Shown: piece after piece, positions 1 to 13,059 of the stretch | Layout of the letters: the number at the start of each line of letters is the position of its first letter | How positions within the stretch are numbered: the first letter of the stretch is position 1 | Virus record (IMG/VR): IMGVR_UViG_3300027734_000153 | Coordinates: 1 to 38,022 of that record | Reading direction: 5' to 3' (one strand) | Length of the DNA: 38,022 nt | DNA from: a virus | Translations under genes and position numbers: made by a program | Notes under the pieces: model-generated | What the model was told of the DNA's origin: nothing | Seen by the model: the letters and a program-made list of their open reading frames with translations, nothing else | The model's database searches: none

Positions 1-369
1 TGCTTTGTGAAGGCGAATACTTTGCCTGAAGCGGAAACCATTGAGCAAACTAAGCTGATTTATCCGACCAGCACAGAGGAGCAAGTTGTAGCCACGCAAC
101 AGATGGAGCAAGCAGTAGCGCAACTCAAGGCGATCAAGGGTCAGATTAAAGAGCTTGAAGGCGCTGAGGAGCAGATAGAAGTAGCGATCAGGAACGCTCT
201 AGGTGACAAATCAGCAGTAGTGAGTGTAGACGGATCAACGCTAGTGACTTGGCGCTCTACTAAGCCCTCTAAGCGCTTTGCTAGTGATCTATTTAAGCAA
301 GCCATGCCTGATATTTATGAGAAGTTTGTGATGGAGCAACCAGGTAGCCGTAGGTTCTTAGTTAAATGA
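1..369 (+). CDS. YqaJ-like exonuclease, C-terminal part (gene split by window ends)
   Basis: This is the 3' part of the gene that begins at 37365. Bases 2-127 equal 37897-38022 and the frame is kept across the join, giving a protein of about 299 aa. The GTG at position 7 is an internal Val codon, not a start. The segment is Glu/Gln-rich and probably helical, followed by a basic C-terminus, as in phage YqaJ recombination exonucleases, where this part follows the nuclease core. The protein would degrade one strand of duplex DNA ends and hand ssDNA to the RecT protein encoded 28 bases downstream. Base 1 (t) differs from its counterpart 37896 (g), so the first codon is unreliable. Confidence 0.85.
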   Translation, partial: CFVKANTLPEAETIEQTKLIYPTSTEEQVVATQQMEQAVAQLKAIKGQIKELEGAEEQIEVAIRNALGDKSAVVSVDGSTLVTWRSTKPSKRFASDLFKQAMPDIYEKFVMEQPGSRRFLVK

Positions 370-397
370 ACAACACTTTATTAACGGGGAAACAATC

Positions 398-1225
398 ATG
401 AGTAACAACTTAATACCTTATGCTGACATGGAGCAGATGGCGCAAGCAATGGTCAAAAGTAATCTATTTGGCATGAAGGATGTAAACCAGGTCATTGCTT
501 TAGGCTTAGTAGCACAGGCTGACGGGATGCCATTTGCTAGTGCAGTACGAGATTACGACATTATTTTAGGTAGACCAGCACTCAAGTCAGCCTCTATGCA
601 AGCACGCTTTCAAGCTGCTGGTGGCAAGGTGGAATGGAAGGTCTATACCGATAGTGAAGTAACAGGTATCTTTTCACACCCTAATGGTGGTAGCTTAGAG
701 CTAACCTGGACTATCGAGCAAGCAACTAAGATTGGTTTAGTTAAACCTAATTCAGGCTGGTCTAAATATCCACGGGCTATGCTTAGGGCACGCTGTTTAT
801 CAGAAGGAATCAGAACAGTCTTTCCAGGGTGCTTAGGCAATATGTATGCTCCTGAGGAAGTGATTGACTTTGAGCCACAGGCAGCACCAAAGCCAAAGAA
901 CATGGGCATTGTCACCAAGCTAGGTGATGAAGTAGTGACTATAGAGAACTTGAAAGAGGACATCATCAAAGGCATACCTATGTATATCCCTGGTAGTGAT
1001 GAACCTTATGCTCAATACCTTACTTCAGATGATTGGATTGATGGCTATGCAGAAATGCACGCCAAGATACACGAATCAACCAAGCTCTCTAAGGAGGAAA
1101 AAGAGGACAAAATTCAATCTTTAAGGCAGTGCAATGATACCTATACGAAAACTTTTGACGGCAATACAGTCGCAAAATTCTTATCCAAGCTCAATATCCA
1201 CAGAAAGGAAATCGCAAATGGCTAG
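398..1225 (+). CDS. recT: RecT-family single-strand annealing protein
   Basis: A 275 aa protein with the RecT pattern: an N-terminal helix with AQAMVKSNLFGMKD, then a core carrying ALGLVAQADGMPFASAVRDY, KSASMQARFQAAGG and SKYPRAMLRARCLSEG. These match the phage RecT/Bet-like annealase family. It would anneal complementary single strands made by the YqaJ exonuclease just upstream, the usual exo-annealase pairing. A ribosome site (aacgggga) lies 5' of the ATG. The last codons overlap the start of the next gene at 1218, suggesting translational coupling. The C-terminal ~90 aa are charged and less recognisable. Confidence 0.9.
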   Translation: MSNNLIPYADMEQMAQAMVKSNLFGMKDVNQVIALGLVAQADGMPFASAVRDYDIILGRPALKSASMQARFQAAGGKVEWKVYTDSEVTGIFSHPNGGSLELTWTIEQATKIGLVKPNSGWSKYPRAMLRARCLSEGIRTVFPGCLGNMYAPEEVIDFEPQAAPKPKNMGIVTKLGDEVVTIENLKEDIIKGIPMYIPGSDEPYAQYLTSDDWIDGYAEMHAKIHESTKLSKEEKEDKIQSLRQCNDTYTKTFDGNTVAKFLSKLNIHRKEIANG

Positions 1226-1481
1226 TTTTATATATCAAGAAGGTAAAGGCGGATTGTTGCAGGAGTTCGACAAAAAGAATCCTGCTGGACCTGATTGGAA
1301 GGGTTCACTAAAACTCAGCAGAGATTATAAGAAGGGCGAGGAAGTACGCATTAGCGCCTGGACTAAGAACAATCCCAAAGGGCAGATCATTAGCCTTAAT
1401 GAGAACAACTGGACACCTAATCCTGATAGTAACTACCCAAAGGAGGTCAATCATGTTAAAGACAGTGATGTTCCTTTTTAG
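1218..1481 (+). CDS. Small SSB-like protein with acidic DSDVPF tail
   Basis: An 87 aa protein starting at the ATG that overlaps the end of recT. It begins MASFIYQEGKGGLLQEFDKK, has a beta-rich middle (GSLKLSRDYKKGEEVRISAW and KGQIISLNENNW), and ends in DSDVPF. That ending closely resembles the DDDIPF tip through which bacterial SSB recruits partner proteins. Position between an annealase and a Holliday junction resolvase, size and tail all suggest a miniature ssDNA-binding protein with one OB-like fold. The fold assignment is inference; no full SSB domain is evident. An upstream in-frame ATG at 1134 lies deep inside recT and is unlikely to be used. Confidence 0.6.
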   Translation: MASFIYQEGKGGLLQEFDKKNPAGPDWKGSLKLSRDYKKGEEVRISAWTKNNPKGQIISLNENNWTPNPDSNYPKEVNHVKDSDVPF

Positions 1482-1605
1482 TATGATTTTAGTGATGATG
1501 CCTATAGCCCAAGCTGGTACTAAATGCGAACCCGTTTCAGGGGGTGGCATTTGCTGTTGGGATGTAGATAAAGAAGGCATCTTTAAACCGATCTCTTGTG
1601 CATGA
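1453..1605 (+). CDS. Tiny secreted Cys-rich protein
   Basis: A 50 aa protein preceded by a perfect AGGAGG at 1441-1446, which decides this start. The N-terminus (MLKTVMFLFSMILVMMPIAQA) reads as a signal peptide with an AQA cleavage site. The mature part is about 29 aa with four cysteines (KCEP, ICCW, ISCA). It overlaps the SSB-like gene by 29 bases in another frame, and its stop overlaps the rusA start. Function is unknown; export to the periplasm is the inference. Confidence 0.65.
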   Translation: MLKTVMFLFSMILVMMPIAQAGTKCEPVSGGGICCWDVDKEGIFKPISCA

Positions 1606-1991
1606 TTATTCTTGATCTTCCCTACCCACCGTCAATCAATAACTATTGGATGACGAGTGGGCATCGTAGATACATTAGTAAGCGAGGCGTAGAGTTTAGA
1701 AAAGCAGTCCTTATGTTTTGCTTAGAGTGGAGAGTGCGTAAATTGGGAGATCAAGCCGTGATGGTTCACATTGTTTTAAAACCGAGATCAAAAAAGCTCA
1801 TGGACATTGACAACTGCGCTAAAGCCATTTTGGATAGTTTAGAGCACGCAGGAGTGATTAATTCTGATGTCCAGGTAGAGCGATTAGTGATTGAAAGGGG
1901 CAAACCCGTCAAAGGTGGCGGTTGCCGTGTCTTAATTGAATTGTTGTCCTCCGATAGCTCAGAGTTGAGCCTTTCACAAGAAGGCAGTTAG
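1602..1991 (+). CDS. rusA: RusA-family Holliday junction resolvase
   Basis: A 129 aa protein with the RusA signature PYPPSINNYW at residues 7-16 and the acidic metal-binding set: D68 and D70 in the DIDN motif, D78 in KAILDSLEHAG and D89 in the NSDVQV segment. RusA-type dimers resolve four-way junctions and D-loops. The ATG overlaps the upstream stop (ATGA); a TTG six bases earlier is less likely. Completing the exonuclease, annealase and SSB-like set, it suggests recombination-driven replication or concatemer processing. Length is typical for the family. Confidence 0.92.
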   Translation: MIILDLPYPPSINNYWMTSGHRRYISKRGVEFRKAVLMFCLEWRVRKLGDQAVMVHIVLKPRSKKLMDIDNCAKAILDSLEHAGVINSDVQVERLVIERGKPVKGGGCRVLIELLSSDSSELSLSQEGS

Positions 1992-2046
1992 GTAAGGTGC
2001 GCCAGCCATCTATTTGGGCAAGCTGGCACTAACTATGGGGATAGCT

Positions 2047-2256
2047 ATGAATGTACCGTACAGAACTAAAACAGGTTTAGAAATTGGCAAGTATTACCAA
2101 AAAGATACTCGCCCAGAAATATCAGAAGATATGGAAGTAATACAGTCGATATTACTTGGAGATTACAAATCTATCAGGCGAAAGAATTTTGAAATGGCAA
2201 TGTATTTTATTGTTCTTTTTGCTGTAATTTTTATTGCAATGGCGTTTTCCAAGTGA
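2047..2256 (+). CDS. Small C-tail-anchored membrane protein
   Basis: A 69 aa protein of unknown function. The first ~48 residues are polar and charged; a single hydrophobic segment (MAMYFIVLFAVIFIAMAFSK) ends the protein, so it would be anchored by its C-terminus with the body in the cytoplasm. The start at 2047 is chosen because a GGGG purine stretch sits about 7 bases upstream; an ATG at 2035 and a TTG at 2014 are alternatives. Its stop overlaps the GTG of the next gene by 4 bases. Confidence 0.6.
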   Translation: MNVPYRTKTGLEIGKYYQKDTRPEISEDMEVIQSILLGDYKSIRRKNFEMAMYFIVLFAVIFIAMAFSK

Positions 2257-2696
2257 AGGGTTCAAATACCTATATAGAGAGGCAAACTGTTGCGAACAGG
2301 GGTGAGGTGTTGTTTGAGCAATATTGCCAGGAAAACCACTATGAATGTAGACGGGTGGGTTTTGATGAGAAAAACAACGCTATAAGCACTTTCTATGATT
2401 TGTCTACCTTATTACGAAATTTGCCAGATTATGTCATGGTGCGCCCTGATAGCACCTATGTGGTCAATGTAAAGGGTACAGCCAACATCAAAAAGAAAGA
2501 GATTGATCTGCTGCCACTGATGATGGAGTGGTTTTCTAGTCGATCAGCGCCCTTGGTCTATGCTTTTTGTTTTGAACATAGTGATCCTTTATTTATTCAT
2601 CCTGAACAGATGATTGACTTGTACCGTAGATCAGTTGATAAACAATGGTCTGATGGGGTGATTTACCGTAATTTGAATTTAATGGAATTTGCATGA
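2253..2696 (+). CDS. Putative PD-(D/E)XK-like nuclease, function unproven
   Basis: A 147 aa protein starting at GTG, overlapping the preceding stop. It has a layout like small nucleases of the PD-(D/E)XK fold: an N-terminal helix NRGEVLFEQYCQENHY, then LPDYVMV, then about ten residues on YVVNVKGT. The expected acidic residue before the lysine is Asn here (N-V-K), so activity is uncertain. Its stop overlaps the ThDP alpha-like gene (ATGA), linking it to the metabolic cassette. It could instead be an inactive homologue or an unrelated phage protein. Confidence 0.5.
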   Translation: MKGSNTYIERQTVANRGEVLFEQYCQENHYECRRVGFDEKNNAISTFYDLSTLLRNLPDYVMVRPDSTYVVNVKGTANIKKKEIDLLPLMMEWFSSRSAPLVYAFCFEHSDPLFIHPEQMIDLYRRSVDKQWSDGVIYRNLNLMEFA

Positions 2697-3310
2697 AACA
2701 CGCTAGTAAAGAAGAACTCATTGCGTTTGAGCAGGAAACAGCGCAGTTGTGGGAAAACGGGGATTTACCGTACCTTATTCACCTATCAGGAGGTAATGAG
2801 GATTTTCTGATTGATTTGTTTGGTGAGGCGAATGAAGGGGACTGGTTCTTTTCTACCCATCGTAATCACCACCACGCCCTTTTAGCAGGGATACCAAAAA
2901 ATGAACTACAAAATTCGATATTGGCTGGAAATTCTATGTTTGTGTATTCTCGCAAGCATCGTTTTTTTACTAGCAGCATCCTTGCTGGCACTTGCTGCAT
3001 TGCTGCTGGCGTAGCCTATGCTTTAAAAGAGGCGGGTAGTAGCAACCGTGTCTGGTGTTTTTTAGGTGACGGGGCTGAAGATCAAGGTCATTTCTATGAA
3101 GCGGTCCGCATGGTAGCAGGGCATGATCTACCGTGTACTTTCATCATTGAGGACAACAATCGCTCAGTAGACACTACTCTAGCAGGGCGTAATCCTTTTG
3201 AGTTTCGGTTTAGGATGCCAGGCTGTGTGATCCGTAATCATTACACCCCAACTTATCCCCATGCTGGTAACGGAACAAAGAAGCACATTATCTTTAAGGA
3301 TGTGAAATGA
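2693..3310 (+). CDS. ThDP-dependent dehydrogenase E1 alpha-like protein (minimal)
   Basis: A 205 aa protein resembling the thiamine-diphosphate-binding (PP) domain of 2-oxo-acid dehydrogenase E1 alpha or the N-half of transketolase. It shows FFSTHRNHHHALLAG (residues 52-66, the HR-H pattern of E1 alpha), AAGVAYALKEAG, and the ThDP/metal motif GDGAEDQGHFYEAV (GDG at 125-127) closing with EDNN at 153-156. Family members usually exceed 300 aa; here N- and C-terminal extensions are missing, so only the cofactor core remains. It would need a pyrimidine-binding partner, which is the gene at 3495. It would cleave and transfer a C-C-bonded two-carbon or acyl unit; the substrate cannot be read from sequence. 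It overlaps both neighbours by 4 bases. Confidence 0.85.
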   Translation: MKHASKEELIAFEQETAQLWENGDLPYLIHLSGGNEDFLIDLFGEANEGDWFFSTHRNHHHALLAGIPKNELQNSILAGNSMFVYSRKHRFFTSSILAGTCCIAAGVAYALKEAGSSNRVWCFLGDGAEDQGHFYEAVRMVAGHDLPCTFIIEDNNRSVDTTLAGRNPFEFRFRMPGCVIRNHYTPTYPHAGNGTKKHIIFKDVK

Positions 3311-3498
3311 ACAATGAACCAGTAGCGTGGACTGTTTGTTTAGATTGTGGCAAAAGAGTTACAGGCGATTCTATTCATACTTGTTCACCACAATTAAAAG
3401 AACTAACAGATGAGGAAATAGATGCTGTTTGGTTTAGTTACAAAGGTGATATTAAAGACTTTGCTAAAGAAATACTAAGAAAGGCACAAGAGAAATGA
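3307..3498 (+). CDS. Small Zn-ribbon-like protein between the ThDP halves
   Basis: A 63 aa protein with CLDCG and HTCSP, a possible Cys/His metal site, then PQLKELTDEEIDAVWFSYKGD and a helical C-terminus (FAKEILRKAQEK). The middle and end resemble a widespread family of small phage proteins with a LTDEEI...FAKEILRKA pattern and no known function. It overlaps both ThDP genes by 4 bases (ATGA), so all three are made together. Whether it takes part in the enzyme is unknown; it may be a passenger. Confidence 0.7.
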   Translation: MNNEPVAWTVCLDCGKRVTGDSIHTCSPQLKELTDEEIDAVWFSYKGDIKDFAKEILRKAQEK

Positions 3499-4010
3499 GC
3501 TATAAAGACGCATTAATTCGTGCCAATACTTATTTGGCTGCTGATCCTAAGACTAGGTTTATAGGCTATGGTTTACTCAAAGGTCGAGCTTTAGGTACGC
3601 TAGTCAATGTGCCAGAGTCGCAAATCATTGAGATGCCAGTAGCTGAGAACCTGATGATGGATATGGCTATTGGTATGGCGCTGGTGGGTTGCAAGCCAGT
3701 GGTGTTCTTAGAACGCATGGACTTTTTAATGAACTGCATGGATGCGCTAGTTAACCATCTAGATAAGATCAGCACGATCTCCCAGGGTGAATTTAATCCA
3801 AAAGTCATCATTCGGTGCATTGTAGGCAACAAAAACAAGCCTTTATACACTGGAGCGACTCATATTCAGGACTTTACCGAAGGTTTACAGGCTATGGTGA
3901 CTATGCCAGTCGTGCAATTAAAAACTGTTGCGGACATCAATTTTTCGTATGAAAAAGCCGACAAAGCCTTATATTCAACGGTTCTAGTGGAATATAAAGA
4001 TCTAATATGA
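3495..4010 (+). CDS. ThDP-dependent E1 beta/transketolase pyrimidine-domain protein (minimal)
   Basis: A 171 aa protein matching the pyrimidine-binding domain of E1 beta or transketolase: an N-terminal MSYKDALIRANTYLAADPKT segment, then IIEMPVAENLMMDMAIGMAL. Glu51 there sits where the catalytic Glu contacts the cofactor aminopyrimidine. Further on are GCKPVVFLERMDFLMN, an Asn-His run, and ATHIQDFTEGLQAMVTMPVV, where H123 matches a conserved E1 beta His. The usual C-terminal transketolase domain (about 130 aa) is absent. With the alpha-like gene at 2693 it would form a complete but stripped-down ThDP active site. It is translationally coupled to neighbours on both sides. Confidence 0.85.
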   Translation: MSYKDALIRANTYLAADPKTRFIGYGLLKGRALGTLVNVPESQIIEMPVAENLMMDMAIGMALVGCKPVVFLERMDFLMNCMDALVNHLDKISTISQGEFNPKVIIRCIVGNKNKPLYTGATHIQDFTEGLQAMVTMPVVQLKTVADINFSYEKADKALYSTVLVEYKDLI

Positions 4011-5101
4011 AAACTAACAAATACTCGGATTTCAAGATTTTTCATGTGGCGGGGAAGGTCAATTCGTTTTTAGAAAACGAGATCATTGCGCCAATCTATG
4101 TTCGTATCAAGCCAATCAATCTTTGCAACCACGGGTGCTTTTTTTGCGCTTATAGCACGGGTTTTCGTGTTAAGGATGGGGGCGAGGAGGAGCATATCCA
4201 TACAGGTATGCACGAAGATATGAAAGAGGATGACACTATCCCTAGAGAGAAGATGTTAGAGATCTTAAATGACCTGCACACCATGGGTGTCAAAGCAATT
4301 ACTTATTCTGGTGGGGGAGAGCCACTCATGCACCCAGACATTGTAGAGATCATGTCTAAGACTTTGGAATACGGCATTGATCTATCCATCATTACTAACG
4401 GTCAAAATTTAGCCAAGGAAAGAGCCGTGGTGCTGCGTAATGCCAAGTGGGTGAGGGTTAGCATGGACTACACCAATGGCGCAGAGATGAAGCGTTTTAG
4501 GAATGTTTCAGAAAAGAGTTTTGATAGTGTGATTAAAAACATCGAGGAGTTTGCTAAACACAAAGCAAAAGACTGTGATCTAGCGGTTAATTATATTGTG
4601 CATCGCAACAATTACGAAAATTTGGGGGTGTTCACCCGCTTATTAAAAAGTATTGGAGTCGAGAATGTGCGCTACAGCCCTATGTATGTACCAGATTTTT
4701 ATGATTATCACAATGCTATTGCTGATTCTGTTAATGCTCAACTCAAAGAAGTTGCCAGCTTGGTTGACGATCATTTTAGTGTTAACAGTACTTACAACAT
4801 TACTCCTGGCAGCAGTCACTCGCCCATCAGGTCCTATAAGCGGTGCTACATCATGCAAACGGTGCCTGTTATCGGGGCTGACCTTGGGGTATACGCCTGT
4901 CATAACAAAGCCTACGACAACACGGGGATGATTGGTTCACTCAAGGATCAGAGCTTTAAAGAACTGTGGTTCAGCCAGGAAGCCAAGGACTATATGATGA
5001 ACTTCAATGCCAAGCGTACTTGTTTACATGAGTGTTCTAATGACCGTAAGAATATTTTGATTAACGAAGTAGTACAAGCCAGTACCGATAACTTTATTTA
5101 G
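4007..5101 (+). CDS. Radical SAM enzyme with SPASM-like C-terminal Cys cluster
   Basis: A 364 aa protein. The radical SAM motif is CNHGCFFC (C40, C44, C47), binding the [4Fe-4S] cluster that cleaves S-adenosylmethionine. The SAM-contacting GGGEP sequence follows in YSGGGEPLMHPD. The C-terminus has four more cysteines (KRC, YAC, RTC, HEC) around a GSLKDQSFKELWFS segment, a pattern typical of SPASM/twitch auxiliary Fe-S domains. Such enzymes modify peptides, sugars or nucleotides by hydrogen abstraction. Its start overlaps the ThDP beta-like stop and a glycosyltransferase follows 8 bases after its stop, so it probably acts in the same pathway. The substrate is unknown. Confidence 0.9.
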   Translation: MKTNKYSDFKIFHVAGKVNSFLENEIIAPIYVRIKPINLCNHGCFFCAYSTGFRVKDGGEEEHIHTGMHEDMKEDDTIPREKMLEILNDLHTMGVKAITYSGGGEPLMHPDIVEIMSKTLEYGIDLSIITNGQNLAKERAVVLRNAKWVRVSMDYTNGAEMKRFRNVSEKSFDSVIKNIEEFAKHKAKDCDLAVNYIVHRNNYENLGVFTRLLKSIGVENVRYSPMYVPDFYDYHNAIADSVNAQLKEVASLVDDHFSVNSTYNITPGSSHSPIRSYKRCYIMQTVPVIGADLGVYACHNKAYDNTGMIGSLKDQSFKELWFSQEAKDYMMNFNAKRTCLHECSNDRKNILINEVVQASTDNFI

Positions 5102-5109
5102 GGATAGAT

Positions 5110-5892
5110 ATGCCACGCAAAAAGAAAGTAGTAGAGCCAGCCACACCCCAAAAAATTAAACTATTTGTTGCAACCCCTATGTATGGGGGGATGGGGGCAG
5201 GGTTTTATATGCAATCTATTTTGCATCTAACTGCTACTTGCCGAGAGCATAATATTGATTTGAGCTTTAGTTTTATGTTTAATGAAAGCCTAATTACACG
5301 GGCTAGAAATGCTTTGACTCACCAATTTCTCAAGAGTGAAAGTACTCATCTGATGTTCATTGATGCTGATATTAAATTTAATGCAGCCGACATTATCCCA
5401 ATGCTTTCGGTTGATAAGGAGATTATCTGTGGCATCTACCCTAAGAAAGAGATTAACTGGGGAAGCGTTAAGAAAGCAATTGATAATGGCGTACCATTTG
5501 AGAATCTCAAAAGCCATACAGGTAGCTTTGTAGTAAACCTGGTAGATTATGTGGGCGAGGTAACCGTGCCTGTGAACAAGCCAGTCGAGATATTTAATGG
5601 TGGTACAGGTTTCATGCTAATTAAGCGAGAAGTCTTTACTAAGTTAGCCGATCATGTACCACAGTACAGCAATGATGTGGCTGATCTATCAGGGCAAATG
5701 CAACAACAAGAAAAGATTTATGAATACTTTGCCACTAGCATTGAGCCTGAAACCAATCGCCTACTGTCAGAGGACTATCACTTCTGCCGTATTTGGAGAT
5801 TGACTGGCGGTAAAGTTTGGGCAGCGCCTTGGTGTCAGCTATCCCACATTGGGACATACGCTTTTGAGGGTAGCTTAACGCCCTCGCCTTGA
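5110..5892 (+). CDS. GT-A fold glycosyltransferase
   Basis: A 260 aa protein. After a basic N-terminus (MPRKKK), residues 15-90 read as a nucleotide-sugar-binding Rossmann-like domain: KIKLFVATPMYGG, NESLITRARNALTHQFL and LMFIDADIKF. D85-A86-D87 is the DxD metal and UDP-sugar motif. FNGGTGFMLIKREVF and SEDYHFCRIWRLTGGKVWAAP near the end are the acceptor-side motifs of GT2-like enzymes. It is the last gene of the plus-strand early operon and would transfer a sugar, possibly one modified by the upstream radical SAM and ThDP enzymes. Its last 18 bases overlap the convergent small gene at 5875. Confidence 0.88.
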   Translation: MPRKKKVVEPATPQKIKLFVATPMYGGMGAGFYMQSILHLTATCREHNIDLSFSFMFNESLITRARNALTHQFLKSESTHLMFIDADIKFNAADIIPMLSVDKEIICGIYPKKEINWGSVKKAIDNGVPFENLKSHTGSFVVNLVDYVGEVTVPVNKPVEIFNGGTGFMLIKREVFTKLADHVPQYSNDVADLSGQMQQQEKIYEYFATSIEPETNRLLSEDYHFCRIWRLTGGKVWAAPWCQLSHIGTYAFEGSLTPSP

Positions 5893-6036
5893 TGGTTTCT
5901 TAGCAGTCTTTGCTGAATCCCTAAAGTCTTTAGCAGTGGGTGCGCCTTTAGTACCTACTGCTCTCATCTTTTCGCCTGAGCCAGCAGCGATCCTAGCTTT
6001 CTTTCGATTGATATTTGCGTATAGTCCGTTTTTCAT
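5875..6036 (-). CDS. Small basic phage protein (53 aa)
   Basis: A 53 aa protein beginning MKNGLYANINRKKARIAAGS and continuing EKMRAVGTKGAPTAKDF. It is Lys/Arg-rich, ends in RRGR, and belongs by eye to a family of tiny basic proteins common in aquatic phages, with no known role. Its ATG overlaps the TGA of the next upstream gene (6033-6036). It is the last gene of the late operon and overlaps the glycosyltransferase end tail-to-tail. Confidence 0.7.
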   Translation of the reverse strand: MKNGLYANINRKKARIAAGSGEKMRAVGTKGAPTAKDFRDSAKTAKKPSRRGR

Positions 6037-6260
6037 CTACTACAACCCCACCTTCCTCTAGCTGCTTTACCTCGTTTACCCTTCCAACCCGCAGACCTAG
6101 CACAAAACGATTTATGCCTTGGTCCTGATTTAGTTGGGGCTTTTAGATCACTGCCTGTAGCACGGTTATATTTGGCACGACCTTTGGCAGTTAAGCCACC
6201 ACCAGCTTTGACTGATAGCTTCTCGCCTCGCCCAACCGATAGATTAGGTTTGCTTGCCAT
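6033..6260 (-). CDS. Small basic phage protein (GGLTAKGRAKYNRATG type)
   Basis: A 75 aa protein with a Gly/Lys-rich core GGGLTAKGRAKYNRATG, LKAPTKSGPRHKSFCARSAGW and a basic tail. The motif recurs in many tailed phages, often late in the structural or lysis operon, and is uncharacterised. Strong net positive charge suggests DNA or RNA binding or packaging with DNA, which is inference. Its stop overlaps the start of the 53 aa gene. Confidence 0.75.
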   Translation of the reverse strand: MASKPNLSVGRGEKLSVKAGGGLTAKGRAKYNRATGSDLKAPTKSGPRHKSFCARSAGWKGKRGKAARGRWGCSR

Positions 6261-6263
6261 ACA

Positions 6264-6380
6264 TTATCGGCTTCTTCTAGACCGTTTAGAACTTTTAACA
6301 ATGCGACTTGTTCTACGAGGCATATTACCCATAGGAGTAACACGCATGATAGGTCTATTAACGCTTAGATTTTCTGGCAT
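6264..6380 (-). CDS. Tiny Arg-rich protein (38 aa)
   Basis: A 38 aa frame starting MPENLSVNRPIMRVTPMG and ending RSRRSR. It overlaps the preceding 51 aa gene by 23 bases in another frame and lies in the same basic-protein run. Very short, with no obvious Shine-Dalgarno, so expression is uncertain. Confidence 0.45.
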   Translation of the reverse strand: MPENLSVNRPIMRVTPMGNMPRRTSRIVKSSKRSRRSR

Positions 6381-6513
6381 TTGTTTTCCCGATTGGTTTA
6401 CGAGCAACAGTTAAGGCAATGGCTACAGCTTGTTTTTGAGGTCTGCCTTCCTTGACCATCTTGCTAATGTTAGCAGAGATAGCGTTCTTTGACTTTGATT
6501 TATTAAGTGGCAT
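6358..6513 (-). CDS. Small basic protein (51 aa, KEGRPQKQAVAIAL type)
   Basis: A 51 aa protein: MPLNKSKSKNAISANISKMV, then KEGRPQKQAVAIALTVARKP. This KSK...N I...GRPQKQAVAIAL pattern recurs in many phage and bacterial small proteins of unknown function. It lies 16 bases downstream of the endolysin gene in the late operon. Confidence 0.75.
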   Translation of the reverse strand: MPLNKSKSKNAISANISKMVKEGRPQKQAVAIALTVARKPIGKTNARKSKR

Positions 6514-6529
6514 GGTTTAATTCCTATAG

Positions 6530-7039
6530 TTAAGTGAACATTTGTTCTGCATTAGCCTCTACTTTATCAGCCCTAGCAAGCCAGCCTTTTTCAAAGTGAG
6601 GATTGTTTAATGATTTATAAAATGCTATTTTTTCTTCGGTGAAATGCTCCACCACATCCATTGGATTAGATTGCCGAATGAGAGCTTGAGTAATTGAACC
6701 CAAGACACCGTCTGCGTCTGCTCCAACGGCTTTTTGCAAGCATTTGATAGATCTTTTGACACCCGCATTGACAGCAAAGTCGAAAACCACATAGTCCACC
6801 CCACTAGGTAAAATATCACATCCTGCTGGATTCCAGTAATTCTGTTTATACAATGGTTTGACCATTACTGGTGTCAAATCTTTAATTTCCTGGACACTAA
6901 CAGGGCGATTGACATAGGCTTTCCAGGTAGCCATAGTTACTCCCCAGTTGGTAGCGCCCCCAGAATCATTGGGGTCCTGAACGAATCCACCTTCGCTTTT
7001 CATTAGCAGGTCAAAGGATTTATTAAAGTTTTCGATCAT
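6530..7039 (-). CDS. Endolysin, GH108 glycosyl hydrolase
   Basis: A 169 aa protein with the GH108 signature: LLMKSEGGFVQDPNDSGG (E16 catalytic) followed by TNWGVT, then QNYWNPAGCD and VDYVVFDFAVNAG. The C-terminal part (AVGADADGVLGSITQALI) is the peptidoglycan-binding portion usual in this family. It cleaves the glycan strand of murein. No signal sequence or SAR segment is visible, so release would need a holin. The start overlaps the Rz stop by 17 bases. Confidence 0.93.
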   Translation of the reverse strand: MIENFNKSFDLLMKSEGGFVQDPNDSGGATNWGVTMATWKAYVNRPVSVQEIKDLTPVMVKPLYKQNYWNPAGCDILPSGVDYVVFDFAVNAGVKRSIKCLQKAVGADADGVLGSITQALIRQSNPMDVVEHFTEEKIAFYKSLNNPHFEKGWLARADKVEANAEQMFT

Positions 7040-7448
7040 TAAAAATGCCTATCTGCTCTTTGAGCCAGCCCTGTAAAGACACCAATTGCTGTGTAGTTAT
7101 CGCACACTTTTCAATAAAGGCAGGGTCGGAGGGGGTTCCATCAGTGCTGCTGGTGGATTTGGAAATGCTTGTTGTTTGATCGGTGTTGGGGAGGCGCATC
7201 CCACCATAAGTAGACTTAATAATAGATAGCTTATTCTGATAGTCATTTTTTACCTTTTCATTTACTTGAACAGCTTCTTTAGCCTTGTATAAATTAATCA
7301 TTTCCTGTTCTTTAGCTTGTGATTCTGCTTTAGATACATAGGCATCGTACTTAACCGACTGATACTTGCCATAGCCAAGACCACCAATAGCTACCAAAGA
7401 TAGGGCAGCATAGATATAAAACTGAATGGGTATTGTTAGTCCAAACAT
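7023..7448 (-). CDS. Rz-like inner-membrane spanin (i-spanin)
   Basis: A 141 aa protein: an N-terminal membrane segment (FYIYAALSLVAIGGLGYGKY), then a long helical periplasmic region (SKAESQAKEQEMINLYKAKE...), ending with a Cys-containing segment FIEKCAITTQQLVSLQGWLK typical of phage Rz proteins. It would join inner and outer membranes with the lipoprotein nested inside its gene (7097-7246). It lies between the holin candidate and the endolysin. Confidence 0.82.
   Translation of the reverse strand: MFGLTIPIQFYIYAALSLVAIGGLGYGKYQSVKYDAYVSKAESQAKEQEMINLYKAKEAVQVNEKVKNDYQNKLSIIKSTYGGMRLPNTDQTTSISKSTSSTDGTPSDPAFIEKCAITTQQLVSLQGWLKEQIGIFNDRKL
7097..7246 (-). CDS. Rz1-like outer-membrane lipoprotein (o-spanin), nested in Rz
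   Basis: A 49 aa frame wholly inside the Rz gene, shifted +1. It starts MTIRISYLLLSLLMVGC, a lipoprotein signal with lipobox M-V-G-C, and the mature peptide is short and Pro-rich (SPTPIKQ..., NPPAAL, EPPPTLP), exactly the composition of Rz1 proteins. The nested arrangement matches lambda Rz/Rz1. It is too short for usual gene-calling limits. Pairing with Rz to fuse the membranes is family knowledge. Confidence 0.82.
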   Translation of the reverse strand: MTIRISYLLLSLLMVGCASPTPIKQQAFPNPPAALMEPPPTLPLLKSVR

Positions 7449-7627
7449 TATCTTTTCATGGGTTGGCTAGTAACGAACCTCAAAATGGCACAGATAATGC
7501 CAATACTAATAAAGATAATGCCGTAATACTTAGGTGGAATGATGTTTTGCAGGTAGGAAAAGTTCTCGTACAGCGAACCAATAATGACTAGTGAAAGTGA
7601 GAACCACATAGTCCTCGACTTCCACAT
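7448..7627 (-). CDS. Putative holin (two membrane segments)
   Basis: A 59 aa protein with two hydrophobic segments, MWFSLSLVIIGSLYENFSYL and YYGIIFISIGIICAILRFVT, and a basic tail (QPMKR). Size, topology and position just before Rz/Rz1 and endolysin suggest a holin. The start is uncertain: ATG 7627 lies after the upstream stop; ATG 7669 and TTG 7696 are in frame but overlap the preceding gene and lack a clear ribosome site. Its stop overlaps the Rz start. Confidence 0.65.
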   Translation of the reverse strand: MWKSRTMWFSLSLVIIGSLYENFSYLQNIIPPKYYGIIFISIGIICAILRFVTSQPMKR

Positions 7628-7643
7628 AGGCTTAGGATGACGG

Positions 7644-7994
7644 TTATAAACCTTCGCCTGGCGTAACATAAACGGCTGAGTTAGCTGAATCACCAATCAC
7701 TCTGGCATATACATTGGCGCTTTGGCTTACTTGTGGACCAGTGATGGTGAAGTAAGCGAATGGCGGTACAGGAATAACATAGCCAGGAGTAAAGTCTGGC
7801 AGCGCCACATTAAAAGTATTGGTTGGGCTAATCCAAACATAAGCAAACGCATTAACACTGTCGTTGGACAAATAGTATTGGTTTACAGGGCTGGTAGCGC
7901 TAATAGTAAAAACATTAGACTCTGTATTAGCAGCGCCATTCGCCACAACTTTGACGGTTTTACCCATCGGCTGAAAAGCGATATTGTTAGCCAT
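7644..7994 (-). CDS. Beta-rich virion-associated protein, unknown role
   Basis: A 116 aa protein, Ser/Thr/Val/Asn-rich with few charges, predicted mostly beta. It contains NGAANTESNVFTISATSP and ends AVYVTPGEGL. It shares design and end (VYVTPGEGL versus VYITPGDGV) with the 108 aa protein at 17060-17386, so the two look like distant paralogues. Such proteins in phages are often capsid or tail decorations, but no function can be assigned. The start overlaps the upstream stop by one base. Confidence 0.7.
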   Translation of the reverse strand: MANNIAFQPMGKTVKVVANGAANTESNVFTISATSPVNQYYLSNDSVNAFAYVWISPTNTFNVALPDFTPGYVIPVPPFAYFTITGPQVSQSANVYARVIGDSANSAVYVTPGEGL

Positions 7995-8242
7995 TAGATA
8001 ATCCGATTCTTTTCAGGCTTTGTCGTTGAGGAGATCTTGCTGTTGTAATCTCCTGATTCAAAGCAAATCACGCTACGAAATCCACCCATCGGAACCTGAC
8101 CTGGACTCCATACTTGGCTACGGACTGTTACATCTGAAGGCTTTTGTGGGCGCATTGCTTTAGGATTATCTTTTTGAGAAAAGTTGTAATCTTTAGCTCC
8201 AGGCACTTCACTCTTGAGTTGAAACTCTTTCATGTCTTTCAT
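7994..8242 (-). CDS. Hypothetical protein (82 aa)
   Basis: A soluble, charged protein starting MKDMKEFQLKSEVPGAKDYN, with a middle VWSPGQVPMGGFRSVICFES. A purine-rich AGAGAG stretch lies upstream of the ATG at 8242; an in-frame ATG at 8233 is possible. It overlaps the preceding membrane protein gene by 35 bases. Function unknown. Confidence 0.6.
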   Translation of the reverse strand: MKDMKEFQLKSEVPGAKDYNFSQKDNPKAMRPQKPSDVTVRSQVWSPGQVPMGGFRSVICFESGDYNSKISSTTKPEKNRII

Positions 8243-8435
8243 TTGTATTTCTCTCTTTAATGTTGATTAGAAGATAACTGAAAATTGAAAAAAATGCCAT
8301 TGTTCCCAGTCGTTCCCACCTTGGATCCCACATAGTCCAACACGCCAGAGAAAAAGAAAGTCCTAGCGCTAAGACTGATAACATACGCTCTGATATGACT
8401 GCTAAAGCTAAACGAACTAATGCGACTGCATCCAT
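8208..8435 (-). CDS. Small membrane protein, holin-like
   Basis: A 75 aa protein with two hydrophobic stretches (VALVRLALAVISERMLSVLALGLSFSLACWTM and LGTMAFFSIFSYLLINI) and a charged C-terminus. An AAGGGG ribosome site precedes the ATG. Location before the lysis genes fits a holin or lysis-accessory protein, but the gene at 7448 competes for that role. Confidence 0.6.
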   Translation of the reverse strand: MDAVALVRLALAVISERMLSVLALGLSFSLACWTMWDPRWERLGTMAFFSIFSYLLINIKERNTNERHERVSTQE

Positions 8436-8469
8436 TGTTAATCCCCTTGTTAATTAAACTATCCATAGT

Positions 8470-8676
8470 TTAATCCTCATCATCTTCTGTTGCAATAAAA
8501 CCGCTACCCCATTCCTCATCGGATAGCTTCTGCTTGAGCTTCTCTATGTTGACTGCACGGTCAATAACCTTGCATTTATCAGTCAAAGAGTAGCTTTCAT
8601 CCTCCATAACAAGCAATAGGAGCTTGCTAACAGCTTCTTCTAGGTCAGGGTTTAAGCCTTTATTCTTTTTAGCCAT
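8470..8676 (-). CDS. Hypothetical helical acidic protein (68 aa)
   Basis: A helical protein starting MAKKNKGLNPDLEEAVSKLL and ending in an acidic tail (ATEDDED). It is one of a line of closely packed late genes, 2 bases after the 603 aa ejection-type gene. No domain recognised. Confidence 0.65.
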   Translation of the reverse strand: MAKKNKGLNPDLEEAVSKLLLLVMEDESYSLTDKCKVIDRAVNIEKLKQKLSDEEWGSGFIATEDDED

Positions 8677-8678
8677 GA

Positions 8679-10490
8679 TTATTTAGTGATTAAATTGTAT
8701 GCGCCAGTAGCTGCGCCTGTACCTACTGCACCATAAACCCCTATTCTGATGCCTTTTCTAATGTATTCTTTTTTCTTTTGAGCATCAGTGATTGCGTTCA
8801 CTTCTCTTAAAAATTGATCTCTTTGCTGAATGTTCATAACACCTGCTTTTTCAAGGCGATTAGCTACTTTAGTAACCTGAGCATTGATTTCATTGATGTC
8901 TTTAGCACGCTCAAGATCACTATTAATCAACATTAGATCGTTCTTTAAGGTTTCTTTTTCTGCTGCCGTAGCAGTTCTAGTAGCGCCCATCTCAGTTACC
9001 TTAGCGCCCCGTTGTTCTGCTGTAATAGCTGCCTTTACATAGTCATCTGCCATTTTTGCGGAATTGGTTTCCTTTAACATAGTTCTGTTATCACGCAAAA
9101 ACTGCTGTAATTGATTGCCTGTCTTTCTGCTTTCAAGCTGGCTTACAAAATAGCGCTGTGCTGACTGCTCTGCTAGTTTGACATCACCACCAAGGGCATC
9201 TATCAAAGCACGGTAATCTTCAGGAGTTTTAAATACTTTTGTTGGTATTGACTGGGCTGGAACTTTAGCGTAGTTAGCGCCTAAACCATACAACTGTGTA
9301 TCTGTTAAAGCCTTACCAACTTTAGTTTGAAACACTCGCATTGGTTCTGAATCTATGCGGTATTGGTCAATAAACTTACGGATGCCAGGAGAGAAATCTT
9401 CCATTACGCCTTCAACAACTTTAGCTAGTCTACCTGCTTGTTGTTGGCTGATCGCATCAAATCCTTCTGCGGGTAAACCCGAAGCCCGATCTCGTAAAAA
9501 CCGTCTTAGGTTCTCTAAACCTTCAAAACTGACTGGTTTTCCTCGCACAATACCTGTAACTGGATCAACTTCTCTAGGATTAATAGCTCTCTTAACTTGT
9601 AACAATTGATTTTTAATTGCGTCAACGGATGCTATAGCTAATTTAGTATCAGGATTAACAATTTCAGCGTTAATTGTTTTTAATGCGTCTTTAAATGCTT
9701 CTGTGTCTGCTACCTTTTGACCAGCTTTTTCTTTATTTAAAGCAAAATTAAATGCCTCAGTTTTGTTGGTTGTTGCATTAGCTTCACGGGTAGCTTTTAA
9801 AGCATTGTATTTTTGGTCAACTATTGACCTAATATCTGAACCAATTTCATTTAATGACTGTGGAATAGCTTTAGTAGCGCCAGCCTCTGTGCTAACAGTA
9901 ACGCCAGGTAGTTGACCATAAGCAGCCTCGCCCTTACCTGCTTCTCGTTGTGCAATTTTTTCTGCTGCACTAGCACGGGACTGGGCAGTTTCCGCTTGAG
10001 TACCTGCGGTAGAGATTTCTTCTTGTAACCTTTTACCTGTTGTTTTTTGGAGTTCTTCAGCAAGATCTTTACCACCAGACATCATCTTGCCAATCTTGCC
10101 AACGCCATATTTTCCTAATTTATATAATGCTGCACCTCCAGCAAGAACGGCAGGGGCAATCTCTCCAGCAGTTTGGTAACCACTTACATCTTCTCTTGGT
10201 TTTGGAATACCTACTGCACCATAAACCCTTTGAATATCTTTAGTGGTTGGCAAATAAGTTTCTCTGCCCATAGGAGCGCCACCTCTAATTTGTTTTGGTA
10301 CAAGAGTTTCTTCAATATCTCCAAGCGATCCCAATGTACTTGTGCCTAATCCATAGGCTACTGCACCTGCTTTTTCTCCAAAGCTAGGTTTTTTCTCTGG
10401 CTCAATAACAATTGAATCTGGATTAAATTTAGCTGTAACCCTACCTTTAGGTTCTTCTGCTAAGGCTGCTGTTGAAGGGTCAAATGCCAT
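8679..10490 (-). CDS. Large helical internal virion / DNA ejection protein candidate
   Basis: A 603 aa protein rich in Ala, Lys, Glu and Gln, with long predicted helices (AQSRASAAEKIAQREAGKG, TNKTEAFNFALNKEKAGQ) and a Gly/Ala hydrophobic stretch near 110-125 (AGEIAPAVLAGGAALYKLGK). The C-terminus again has a Gly/Ala segment (GIRIGVYGAVGTGAATG). With the next three genes upstream it forms a block of large proteins where podoviruses place ejection proteins (T7 gp14-16, P22 gp7/16/20). No direct family match was recognised, so this is a positional and compositional call. Confidence 0.6.
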   Translation of the reverse strand: MAFDPSTAALAEEPKGRVTAKFNPDSIVIEPEKKPSFGEKAGAVAYGLGTSTLGSLGDIEETLVPKQIRGGAPMGRETYLPTTKDIQRVYGAVGIPKPREDVSGYQTAGEIAPAVLAGGAALYKLGKYGVGKIGKMMSGGKDLAEELQKTTGKRLQEEISTAGTQAETAQSRASAAEKIAQREAGKGEAAYGQLPGVTVSTEAGATKAIPQSLNEIGSDIRSIVDQKYNALKATREANATTNKTEAFNFALNKEKAGQKVADTEAFKDALKTINAEIVNPDTKLAIASVDAIKNQLLQVKRAINPREVDPVTGIVRGKPVSFEGLENLRRFLRDRASGLPAEGFDAISQQQAGRLAKVVEGVMEDFSPGIRKFIDQYRIDSEPMRVFQTKVGKALTDTQLYGLGANYAKVPAQSIPTKVFKTPEDYRALIDALGGDVKLAEQSAQRYFVSQLESRKTGNQLQQFLRDNRTMLKETNSAKMADDYVKAAITAEQRGAKVTEMGATRTATAAEKETLKNDLMLINSDLERAKDINEINAQVTKVANRLEKAGVMNIQQRDQFLREVNAITDAQKKKEYIRKGIRIGVYGAVGTGAATGAYNLITK

Positions 10491-11779
10491 TATTGATCCT
10501 CCCAGTTTCCATTTCCTAAATACTTAGCTTTATTTCCAGAGCTATCTGTATATACTTTTCCAGTCACATACTTATCTTGAGTTCCACCACCAGTAGGAGC
10601 ATTGCCATAAGTAGCAGTAAAGCTAACTGGTTCAGCATCAGGCAAACGGTAGCCAGAAGATTCAAATGCTCGTCTACGCTGACCTGCTGTATCTAAAGTG
10701 TAATCAATTTGATCTTGAATCATATTTTGAACAACTTTAGGCTGGTCGCTTTTCTTAGCAGTAAATTCTTGATAGTTTTTAAGCTCGTTACCAGTTAAGG
10801 TAGCACCAAACAGGGCATGACGATTAGGTGCTTGTAAGCGTTGGTAATCTGACCACCATGAGATTGCTTTTCTACCTTCTTCATCGCCAAATCTACGCAG
10901 TGCTTCAGCTTGTAAATCAGCACCAAAACCAAATAAACCCAAACTAGCGTACTCAGGTTTAAACTTGTTTTTAAGGTTCATTAAGCCATTAGCAAGGGAT
11001 TCAAGCCCTGTAATGCTATTAATTTCTTTATCTTTTAATGGTTTTCCAGCATCTCTAGCGTTAGATTTCATCATGGCAAGACCTAAATCTTGTGCCATCC
11101 TGTCTGCTTTTAACTGGGCATCCATAAACTTATATAGATCTTCTTTAACTCCAAGAGCGCCCTTAGTATTGTAAGAAGCCTTTAAGAAGTCGCTTCCTGA
11201 CGCTGCTACAGCAACAGCACGATCAGCGCTTGCTTTTGCTGAATCAATTAAAGCAGTCTTATCCGCTAGTTCTAGCTCTTTATATAAACGATCTTGAGTA
11301 GCTTTTAAAGAAGCCATTTCTTTGTCAAACTGGATCTGTTCCCGTCTAAAGACATCTTGTCTACCAGTTTGGTAGCCCTTCATCATGCCTGTCATGGCAT
11401 CAATTGCGCCTCTACCTGAACTTGCGCCATATTTTCCTGATGCTGTACCAATAAAGGCAATCAATCCAGCTAAAGAGGACATACCAATAAAGGTTTCCTG
11501 AGTAGGTTTAAAGTCAACCCCTTTAGATACAGTGCTGAGTTCTTTTAAGATAGGTTCTCTAGCTGCACGCTGTATATCTGATGTTTGATACGCTGCATCA
11601 CGGGTAGCTTGTGCTTCACCAATAGATTTTTGAACAGCAGCCTCACCTTCAGCTTTGTACGCATCACTTGTAGCTTGACTAGCTTGGCTTAAATCACCCA
11701 TGCTAATACGAGGCGCTTTAGGTGCTTTTGGAACAACAGGGTTTGAGAAGTTGCCTAATGTTTCAGGATTAATAGACAT
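10490..11779 (-). CDS. Internal virion / ejection protein candidate
   Basis: A 429 aa protein. The N-terminus is Pro/Lys-rich (VVPKAPKAPRISMGDL), then Ala/Gln-rich helices (SQATSDAYKAEGEAAVQKSI), a short Gly/Ala hydrophobic part (GMSSLAGLIAFIGTASGKYG) that could insert in a membrane, then a coiled-coil region (QFDKEMASLKATQDRLYKEL). Its stop overlaps the start of the 603 aa gene by one base. No enzymatic motif was seen. The ejection role rests on position and composition. Confidence 0.6.
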   Translation of the reverse strand: MSINPETLGNFSNPVVPKAPKAPRISMGDLSQASQATSDAYKAEGEAAVQKSIGEAQATRDAAYQTSDIQRAAREPILKELSTVSKGVDFKPTQETFIGMSSLAGLIAFIGTASGKYGASSGRGAIDAMTGMMKGYQTGRQDVFRREQIQFDKEMASLKATQDRLYKELELADKTALIDSAKASADRAVAVAASGSDFLKASYNTKGALGVKEDLYKFMDAQLKADRMAQDLGLAMMKSNARDAGKPLKDKEINSITGLESLANGLMNLKNKFKPEYASLGLFGFGADLQAEALRRFGDEEGRKAISWWSDYQRLQAPNRHALFGATLTGNELKNYQEFTAKKSDQPKVVQNMIQDQIDYTLDTAGQRRRAFESSGYRLPDAEPVSFTATYGNAPTGGGTQDKYVTGKVYTDSSGNKAKYLGNGNWEDQ

Positions 11780-11781
11780 AA

Positions 11782-13059
11782 TTAAATCTCTCCTTTTTGT
11801 TCTGTCAAGGTATTGCTATAGTTTCCACCACCAGTGAGCAAATCTGAACCAGCATTGGCGATAGTATCAATTACTCCTGGACTTTGTCTTGATCCTGGAA
11901 CGCCTGAAGGTAAGTTAGGGCTATAACCCAATACCATTGGTGCAAGCAAAGTTCCTAATTGTTTAGCAAAGTCTGCTTGACTTGCTGCCAAAGCATTATC
12001 AGCAACCATACCTGCTTGGATAGCGTTAATAGCGTAGTTATCACCAATGTTAGCAATCTTGATACCTTGAATTAACTGGTTATCTAGGAGGCGTGCTTCC
12101 AAATCAGCAATACTGTTAGCGCCTTGTAAGACTCCTACGCCACCTGTACGGCTAATGTTTTGGGCTGCCATTGCTCTAGCTGCCTTAACTGCTTGAAGGT
12201 TACTAGCACTTAGATTACCTGCTTGAGCACCAGCAATTAAACCTTTTCCAATGCCTTGATACGGAGCAGCAATAGCATTTCTTTCATTCTTAGCAGTTTG
12301 AGCTTGTTCTTCTGCTTTCTTAGCAGCAGGTTGTTGAACACCTCTAGATAAAGCATAAGCTGTACCAGCACCTAAACCTAAGCGTAGTAACTGACTTAAA
12401 AGATTAGAATAATCCTTCTCTTTTTGTTGTTGTTCCTTAGTTTTAGGTCCTCCAGCCGTTGAAACAGGAGTTAAATTTTGATAATACGATCTTCCGTCAG
12501 GCGTATAAACAGTTTCCTGACCTTCAGTTGGCAACACACCGCCTGGATATAACTGAGGATAAGCTGCTGCTGCTTGCTCTGGGGTTAACTGAGTTGGTAT
12601 TCCTTGTTCATTTAAAGGATACAAAGTTGAGCCAAAATCTCCATAATTAGGAGCATTAGGTTCTATTTGTCTTGCGCTTGGTGTATACCCCATTTCCTCA
12701 TAGGTAGGACCAGCTTGTTCTGGGTAATAAGTTTGTGGCGTGTAACCCATTTCGTTATAAGTTGGACCAGCTTGTTCTGGATAAACTTGTTCTGGTACAT
12801 ATCCCATTTCTTCATAAGTAGGACCAGCCTGTTCTGGATAATAAGTATCAGGTTCATAATTTGTATCTTCACCGTCATAGTATTCTAATAAGCCAGTATC
12901 AGGATTAATTGTTCCAGCACCACCACGCCTTTTAAGTAAAGCAGCCTCTCTAGGAGTAATGTGGGCAAGAACTGTATCTTTACCCCGACCTTTAGCACGG
13001 ATCATTTCTGCCAATGCTGGCAATCCCAAGCCAAGCGTTTTTGATAAAGTATTGTTCAT
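11782..13059 (-). CDS. Virion protein with 19-residue tandem repeats, ejection-protein candidate
   Basis: A 425 aa protein. Residues 73-125 hold three copies of a YPEQAGPTYEEMGY unit spaced 19 residues apart, in a Tyr/Pro/Glu-rich, probably extended region. The later half is helical and Ala/Gln-rich (KKAEEQAQTAKNERNAIAAP, GKGLIAGAQAGNLSASNLQ). It sits between the DUF4214-like protein and the 429 aa protein. The repeat could bind a partner virion protein; that is inference. Confidence 0.6.
   Translation of the reverse strand: MNNTLSKTLGLGLPALAEMIRAKGRGKDTVLAHITPREAALLKRRGGAGTINPDTGLLEYYDGEDTNYEPDTYYPEQAGPTYEEMGYVPEQVYPEQAGPTYNEMGYTPQTYYPEQAGPTYEEMGYTPSARQIEPNAPNYGDFGSTLYPLNEQGIPTQLTPEQAAAAYPQLYPGGVLPTEGQETVYTPDGRSYYQNLTPVSTAGGPKTKEQQQKEKDYSNLLSQLLRLGLGAGTAYALSRGVQQPAAKKAEEQAQTAKNERNAIAAPYQGIGKGLIAGAQAGNLSASNLQAVKAARAMAAQNISRTGGVGVLQGANSIADLEARLLDNQLIQGIKIANIGDNYAINAIQAGMVADNALAASQADFAKQLGTLLAPMVLGYSPNLPSGVPGSRQSPGVIDTIANAGSDLLTGGGNYSNTLTEQKGEI
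12685..12843 (-). repeat. 57-bp tandem repeat, three copies, inside the 425 aa virion gene
   Basis: Three imperfect in-frame units of 57 bp encode the YPEQAGPTYEEMGY repeat. On the plus strand they are seen as recurring gaccagc(t/c)tgttctgg and cccatttc blocks. Copies differ mostly at silent positions, so the protein repeat is conserved while the DNA has drifted. Confidence 0.85.

Follow-up and report, generated by a model that had tools for sequence, protein, structure and literature searches.

A putative minimal thiamine diphosphate enzyme kept beside a radical SAM protein or a zinc alcohol dehydrogenase: a candidate glycan-modifying cassette in phages

We analyzed a 38,022-nucleotide stretch of viral DNA (positions 1 to 38,022 of IMG/VR virus record IMGVR_UViG_3300027734_000153, hereafter the window), which carries two short genes, here called alpha and beta, upstream of genes for a radical S-adenosylmethionine (SAM) protein and a glycosyltransferase-like protein. 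Comparison with known families and structures shows alpha and beta to be, at the level of sequence, the predicted halves of one minimal thiamine diphosphate (ThDP) enzyme that has the PP and PYR domains without the transketolase C-terminal (TKC) domain. Comparison of loci likewise shows that this putative enzyme is kept beside one oxidoreductase gene, encoding either a radical SAM protein with four likely auxiliary cysteines or a zinc alcohol dehydrogenase (ADH). The explanation that we favor, at a probability of about 0.48, is an optional glycan-modifying cassette in which the oxidoreductase would make a keto-sugar and the ThDP enzyme would add a short carbon unit to it. The genes concerned are as follows.

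2693..3310, + strand: alpha, putative PP-domain half of a minimal E1/transketolase-like ThDP enzyme, 205 amino acids (Pfam, PHROG, motifs)
3307..3498, + strand: 63-residue open reading frame (ORF) between alpha and beta (ORF list)
3495..4010, + strand: beta, putative PYR-domain half with Glu51 and His123, 171 amino acids (PHROG 34187, conservation)
4007..5101, + strand: radical SAM protein, 364 amino acids (Pfam, alignment of 25, model, PDB matches)
5110..5892, + strand: glycosyltransferase-like protein with a D-A-D motif, 260 amino acids (PHROG 1574)

A putative minimal ThDP enzyme in two halves

Alpha matched the Pfam family E1_dh (2.6e-18) and beta matched Transket_pyr at 5.3e-6 and 26.6 bits, slightly below the cut-off of 27; together with the matches of the radical SAM protein to Radical_SAM (1.2e-18) and SPASM (1.1e-5), these are the families to which the original prediction, made from the sequence alone, had pointed. 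Beta also matched the NCBIfam E1 beta subfamily at 1.6e-11, under its cut-off, and the equivalog for E1 of the pyruvate dehydrogenase (PDH) complex, TIGR03182, was not reached (96.8 bits relative to a cut-off of 393.85). Both proteins matched PHROG 34187, alpha at positions 9-198 (2e-68) and beta at positions 237-402 (1.6e-45) of its 405. A single chain of this family, so far annotated as being of unknown function, combines matches to both E1 alpha and E1 beta; by sequence the family is therefore a ThDP enzyme in fused form, and a new name might be given to it.

The residues expected of such an enzyme are conserved. In alpha, His56, His61, G125, D126, and His190 are kept in all 55 aligned rows and G127 and N155 in 54 of them, and in beta Glu51 and His123 are kept in 54 of 54 rows. 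G125, D126, and N155 of alpha conform to the GDx(25-30)N motif by which the PP domain of E1/transketolase-like ThDP enzymes is defined (PMC2831816; this and the other papers are cited for the portions of their text that were available), and Glu51 of beta corresponds to the catalytic glutamate of the PYR domain. A single-chain model of a fused relative, at locus L062 (mean predicted local distance difference test score, pLDDT, 93.8), aligned with the transketolase 3ooy_A over 350 residues (Z 21.6, root-mean-square deviation, rmsd, 3.5), and its PYR part aligned with the E1 beta chain 1w85_B over 170 residues (Z 22.0, rmsd 1.7). The model spans at most residues 17-477 of human transketolase and 1-176 of 1w85_B, thus stopping before the TKC domain, and in the window beta ends at 171 amino acids with no TKC domain in it. 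That both proteins are reduced to cofactor-binding domains, as had been suggested, is therefore supported, and that the halves belong together is borne out by natural alpha-beta fusions in cyanophages, IMG/VR contigs, metagenome-assembled genomes (MAGs), and one archaeal genome. The cofactor site shared by both halves, on which the original prediction would stand or fall, was addressed indirectly, through these fusions and the single-chain model. To our knowledge, the alpha-beta pair may be the smallest E1/transketolase-type ThDP enzyme. Transketolase-like enzymes are described as consisting of PP, PYR, and TKC domains, of which TKC is thought to be a later addition, and the split-gene transketolase of Carboxydothermus (ChTK) likewise has PP and PYR on separate chains with a transketolase-like fold (PMC7661550).

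Association with a radical SAM protein or a zinc alcohol dehydrogenase

Annotated phage matches to alpha were found in cyanophages S-SM2 and P-TIM68 and in the 735-kb record LR756501 at 50-53% identity, compared with 27-29% for ordinary E1 enzymes. Alpha and beta together match one gene in S-SM2 and one in P-TIM68, the "transketolase central region-containing protein," which lies directly after a zinc ADH gene in a cluster of nucleotide-sugar and glycosyltransferase genes; S-SM2 is known for large lipopolysaccharide gene clusters (PMC3037559). These fused cyanophage genes presumably belong to PHROG 34187. The order in LR756501 is beta, radical SAM gene (46% identical), alpha, in a run that holds two Glycos_transf_2 genes, an epimerase, and a C-methyltransferase by Pfam, and others that appear alike by eye.

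The cassette is widespread and occurs in many phages of fresh and sea water, mostly amid genes that handle sugars. Among IMG/VR contigs alpha had 118 relatives as a single sequence and 464 as a profile, the radical SAM protein had 61, and two further alpha profile scans of viral contigs gave 403 and 371; the best 80 loci of each viral scan were read. An alpha ORF was present at 275 of 294 loci (numbered with the prefix L), the 19 with none at E<1e-20 being excluded from the cluster counts, and these ORFs formed 54 clusters at 85% identity. Their members come from phage records, from IMG/VR contigs, and from seven contigs of MAGs or single cells; five clusters are cellular only, and every cluster has at least one member retrieved with an alpha query (247 of the 275 loci, from an identifier list compiled by hand). 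In every one of the 54 clusters an oxidoreductase gene lies no more than 3 kb away on the strand of alpha; it encodes a radical SAM protein in 25 clusters and a zinc ADH in 29. Fused alpha-beta genes with ADH account for 27 clusters and split genes with radical SAM for 24, while two are split with ADH (L081 and L271, the latter cut by the contig end) and one is fused with radical SAM (L216). A partner is visible at 262 of the 275 alpha loci and the other 13 are near contig ends, with L011 (1.5 kb after alpha) as the least clear case. The association exceeds chance: over the 54 representative loci, radical SAM and ADH profiles that had been trained on near copies gave 59 hits in the 360 kb lying 3 kb or less from alpha and one in the 460 kb farther away. 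Scattering of these genes in related phages, which the original prediction had named as evidence against itself, was not seen, as distant phages keep the ThDP genes in tight linkage with the radical SAM gene.

A quick alpha tree, built without bootstrap, rooted at its midpoint, and containing long branches for L081 and L290, divides into an ADH side and a radical SAM side. Locus L081, with the order beta-ADH-alpha, falls on the radical SAM side, and L216, a fused alpha-beta gene with a radical SAM gene, falls on the ADH side; at least three partner changes are needed on this tree, two of them forced by its starred branches. As these swaps occurred in both directions, we believe that the radical SAM protein and the zinc ADH are probably interchangeable, which would point to a carbonyl-forming step.

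The radical SAM protein has the CX3CX2C motif of the SAM cluster (C40, C44, and C47 in 25 of 25 aligned relatives) and exactly four other invariant cysteines (C280, C298, C339, and C343, again in all 25). The dehydrogenase BtrN uses the same number of cysteines as ligands of its auxiliary cluster (PMC9012708), and the four of the radical SAM protein may bind such a cluster. The structural model of the window protein (pLDDT 88.5) had DesII as its top PDB match (Z 25.3, rmsd 4.0, 322 residues aligned), ahead of SkfB (Z 24.1, rmsd 3.6, 296 aligned) and BlsE (Z 23.1, rmsd 4.2, 297 aligned), so that two of the three best matches, DesII and BlsE, are sugar enzymes; SuiB, PqqE, and MoaA followed, and anSME was also among the matches. 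DesII, BlsE, and BtrN share the fold over most of the protein at 15-24% identity, and the equivalogs for DesII and BlsE were not reached (TIGR04426, 36.9 bits vs. 450; TIGR04466, 52.4 vs. 400). DesII deaminates a thymidine diphosphate (TDP)-sugar and dehydrogenates TDP-quinovose (PMC11434129), and DesII and BtrN can both oxidize a hydroxyl to a ketone (PMC9012708, PMC11434129). We infer solely from the exchange with ADH that the window protein would perform a two-electron oxidation of a sugar-like alcohol.

Relatives are sparse in the cellular genomes sampled, being found in 2 of 291 genomes of one class and in 1 of 379 and 7 of 371 genomes of two phyla (E<=1e-40, with the centre genome counted). 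At least seven cellular contigs were among the matches listed, with a radical SAM gene in L131-L133 and L137 and an ADH gene in L134-L136, and of eight further cellular copies of alpha five have a radical SAM gene of the cassette family (L303, the first pair of L305, and L306-L308). The archaeal contig L303 combines a fused alpha-beta gene with radical SAM, short-chain dehydrogenase/reductase (SDR), and GT9 genes, alongside PfkB-SIS fusion, cytidylyltransferase-like, epimerase, and HAD-type genes. When plasmids were searched with a cellular alpha, the 162 matching records all fell below 60% identity, and the 15 listed were mostly annotated as ordinary E1. Another archaeal contig, L305, has two alpha-beta pairs (2372-14032), one of them distant.

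Genes surrounding the cassette

For the neighbors we took the nearest 140 each of 284 proteins at ADH-type loci and 176 at radical SAM-type loci, of which 128 and 125, respectively, were scanned with Pfam, some short or overlong ORFs being omitted. The ADH-type set contained 18 PfkB kinases, 13 SDR proteins, and 12 epimerases, and the radical SAM-type set 11 Glycos_transf_2 and 8 Anp1 proteins. One neighboring kinase resembled heptose-7-phosphate kinase and one epimerase resembled heptose 6-epimerase, both below cut-off. Connected components of neighbors merge some unrelated or bifunctional proteins, and hence only the kinase/nucleotidyltransferase component was used; it occurs at 19 ADH-type loci and at one radical SAM-type locus. 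The many neighbors for glycosyl transfer and nucleotide-sugar metabolism, with sugar kinases in addition at ADH-type loci, support the preference of the original prediction for a glycan over DNA, and a glycan of the virion or the host surface is the likelier target. A 253-residue neighbor family of the phages with the order beta-rSAM-alpha (rSAM standing for radical SAM) was considered as GT9 and not counted, as comparing the profiles gave no more than a suggestive match (probability 67.7, E 4.9e-5, 80 columns) and Pfam gave nothing for one member.

The original prediction placed these genes in an early operon. This setting was seen in the clade of the window only, where the cassette lies downstream of RecE-, RecT-, and RusA-like genes (ORF list, PHROG), whereas the other phages that were read have it within sugar clusters or in the company of head and packaging genes. 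At L048 the end of the terminase gene overlaps alpha, and one ORF separates the radical SAM gene from the portal gene behind it, at L156 the terminase gene is directly after the radical SAM gene, at L062 a terminase gene is downstream, and at L065, L264, L272, L288, and L292 a match to a major head or virion structural protein is upstream of the cassette. Nine of ten proteins gave a head or packaging match; the ten were hand-picked as likely structural, and the figure is therefore no rate.

As a separate observation, phage record MW202801 (L004), in which alpha had no match, has at 10598-16658 a capsid gene followed by a radical SAM gene of the cassette family, two glycosyltransferases, and genes annotated as PhyH, methyltransferase, and NodB-like; this region is another glycan island amid structural genes.

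The glycosyltransferase and related phages without the cassette

The glycosyltransferase-like protein of the window matched PHROG 1574 at 5.7e-47; its only Pfam match was Anp1 (3.5e-5, below cut-off), and no PDB sequence matched at E 0.1. Two related phages with circular records, both from Manatee Spring (MW202753 and MW202825, of which the second is labeled UNVERIFIED), carry RecE, RecT, ssb, and the glycosyltransferase, 69-70% identical, in the order of the window, and in MW202753 RusA is immediately upstream of the glycosyltransferase. A profile search of both whole records, run without an internal positive control, gave no alpha or radical SAM match, and both were absent from tblastn results for alpha, beta, and the radical SAM protein that did include other records of the same collection. 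As the gene order is the same without them, alpha, beta, and the radical SAM gene appear to be an optional unit placed ahead of an existing glycosyltransferase. We therefore rejected the glycosyltransferase as an inseparable fourth gene, and its proposed role as an integral member of the pathway was not borne out.

Proposed pathway and alternatives

In the glycan-modifying pathway that we favor, the radical SAM protein or the zinc ADH would oxidize a sugar hydroxyl to a carbonyl, and the ThDP enzyme would decarboxylate a 2-oxo acid, with pyruvate as the obvious donor, and add the two-carbon unit to the sugar carbonyl, yielding a branched or lengthened sugar. A glycosyltransferase would attach the sugar, before or after that addition, to a glycan of the virion or the host surface. 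A shared carbonyl product is the simplest reading of an oxidoreductase that is conserved yet exchangeable, and a ThDP enzyme with no E2 partner in sight would need a carbonyl acceptor (no E2 or E3 family was among the first 25 families listed for each neighbor set, out of 57 and 70). Of what was first suggested for these genes, the paired truncated ThDP halves, the linkage to radical SAM, and the glycan context are supported; the integral glycosyltransferase and, outside the clade of the window, the early-operon setting are not.

The donor, acceptor, order of steps, and target are all inferred. AviB1/AviB2 of avilamycin, Pau11/Pau12 and Plm8/Plm9 of paulomycin, and EvdU5/EvdS3 of everninomicin are pairs resembling PDH E1 alpha and beta that are proposed to put a (pyruvate-derived) two-carbon unit on a keto sugar, and in avilamycin a 4-keto sugar is said to join the chain first (PMC4425429, PMC4802897, PMC10338323). 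We liken them to the phage pair by description, not by sequence, as both are E1-like pairs. Pau11 and Pau12 have 325 and 345 residues compared with 205 and 171 for the window proteins, which are without TKC, and the keto sugars in those systems come from SDR-type enzymes or 4,6-dehydratases, whereas the phage partner, present in 54 of 54 clusters, is a radical SAM protein or a zinc ADH for which keto-sugar formation would have to be assumed. The avilamycin order, with the sugar attached first, would suit the window, as a scan of 20 of its proteins showed no sugar-nucleotide gene. The cassette itself was found in no paper, in a literature search that reached few subscription papers and judged its hits largely by title and opening of the abstract.

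Several observations weigh against this explanation. The same lack of a sugar-nucleotide gene means that a donor from the host must be assumed, no NCBIfam curated cut-off was reached by either ThDP half or by the radical SAM protein, and the heptose-type genes beside many copies would fit a transketolase-like role too. Among the structural matches BtrN ranked lower (Z 17.2, rmsd 3.2, 223 aligned), and high scores were also obtained for the peptide-acting SkfB, SuiB, and PqqE. The exchange of genes suggests equal roles and does not say which oxidation, and a step after the ThDP reaction is feasible as well. In cells, several loci have two radical SAM genes, and three copies (L304, L309, and the second pair of L305) had no match to the radical SAM or ADH profiles. 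Near the distant alpha-beta pairs of L309 (4513-9960) and L305 (4502-5977) there is a gene with B12-binding and Radical_SAM domains, so that a B12-type radical SAM protein is possibly a third kind of partner. As the three partnerless copies are all distant, we left our confidence unchanged. GHMP kinase and nucleotidyltransferase genes were also observed near the pair in L309.

As a broader and more tentative proposal, virus-enriched ThDP ligases without TKC, with an interchangeable radical SAM protein or zinc dehydrogenase, might build branched or lengthened sugars on virions or the infected host as an optional cassette. If true, phages would carry carbon-carbon bond-forming glycan chemistry and would be linked to the branched-sugar chemistry known from antibiotics and O-antigens. 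PHROG 34187, a family with up to 464 relatives in viral contigs, would gain a testable function, the natural exchange with a zinc dehydrogenase offers an unusual clue to the role of a radical SAM enzyme, and phages that share a gene order, some having the cassette and some lacking it, offer ready comparisons.

The alternative that survives best is a minimal transketolase, which would transfer a two-carbon ketol unit and so form a heptulose or another ketose phosphate to feed a nucleotide-heptose pathway in which the oxidoreductase acts elsewhere. The alignment of the fused model with 3ooy_A would suit such an enzyme, as would the RfaE-domain-like kinase and heptose 6-epimerase-like neighbors (below cut-off), the heptose-type gene sets beside the cassette in L303, L308, and L309, and the GT9 genes nearby. 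We nevertheless consider it rather unlikely, because the sequences are closer to PDH E1 than to transketolase, the oxidoreductase is left unexplained, and the kinase/nucleotidyltransferase component is nearly confined to ADH-type loci, and no gene of that kind turned up in the scanned proteins of the window.

Peptides are frequent substrates of SPASM proteins, SkfB included, which raises the alternative that the radical SAM protein modifies a virion protein with an acyl or aldehyde group supplied by the ThDP enzyme. PqqE and SuiB also act on peptides (PMC9012708) and, like SkfB and anSME, were among the structural matches, and the cassette lies amid head genes in several phages. The exchange with a zinc ADH, the sugar-gene surroundings in phages and cells, and the two sugar enzymes among the top three matches make this explanation improbable.

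Acetoin operons pair an E1 enzyme with a zinc dehydrogenase, and ordinary E1 enzymes distantly like the phage proteins include AcoA, so that acetoin- or 2-oxo-acid-type auxiliary metabolic genes serving redox or carbon flow in infection might also be envisaged. Given the lack of E2 and E3 families among the first 25 neighbor families listed for each set, the swap with radical SAM, and the glycosyltransferase context, we give this little credence. Finally, DNA hypermodification, in which the genes would make an odd group and attach it to phage DNA, is very unlikely even with the window copy behind recombination genes, as other phages have the cassette among head genes or in sugar clusters, the cellular copies are amid polysaccharide-type genes, and, as had been remarked originally, no base-modification gene came up in the scan of 20 window proteins.

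Layout of the window

The genes for alpha, beta, the radical SAM protein, and the glycosyltransferase lie where the original prediction had placed them and are as it described them (ORF list). Of the chain that it drew, the 4-base overlaps and the 8-base gap between the radical SAM gene and the glycosyltransferase start are present, but alpha and beta are not adjacent: the overlaps run from alpha to the 63-residue ORF (3307-3498), from that ORF to beta, and from beta to the radical SAM gene. This ORF had been overlooked, as had the exchange with zinc ADH and the fused alpha-beta form. Its relatives were found only in L006 (identical), L110, and L113 (tblastn, E<=1e-5, 129 loci), no Pfam match reached its cut-off, and by this comparison an ORF at this position appears mostly unconserved. 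In L088, from a phage closely related to that of the window, alpha and beta are separated by a DNA methylase gene (6392-7489; N6_N4_Mtase, 1.9e-52). Upstream of alpha are the following genes, the last small ORF overlapping alpha by 4 bases.

7..2696, + strand: RecE-like, RecT-like, ssb-like, and RusA-like genes and two small ORFs (ORFs; PHROG for the RecE-, RecT-, and RusA-like genes; "ssb-like" is our own label, with no family match behind it)

Elsewhere in the window, positions 18001-20000, within a 733-residue ORF (17783-19984), have a guanine-cytosine (GC) skew of -0.22 to -0.26 and a GC content of up to 0.496.

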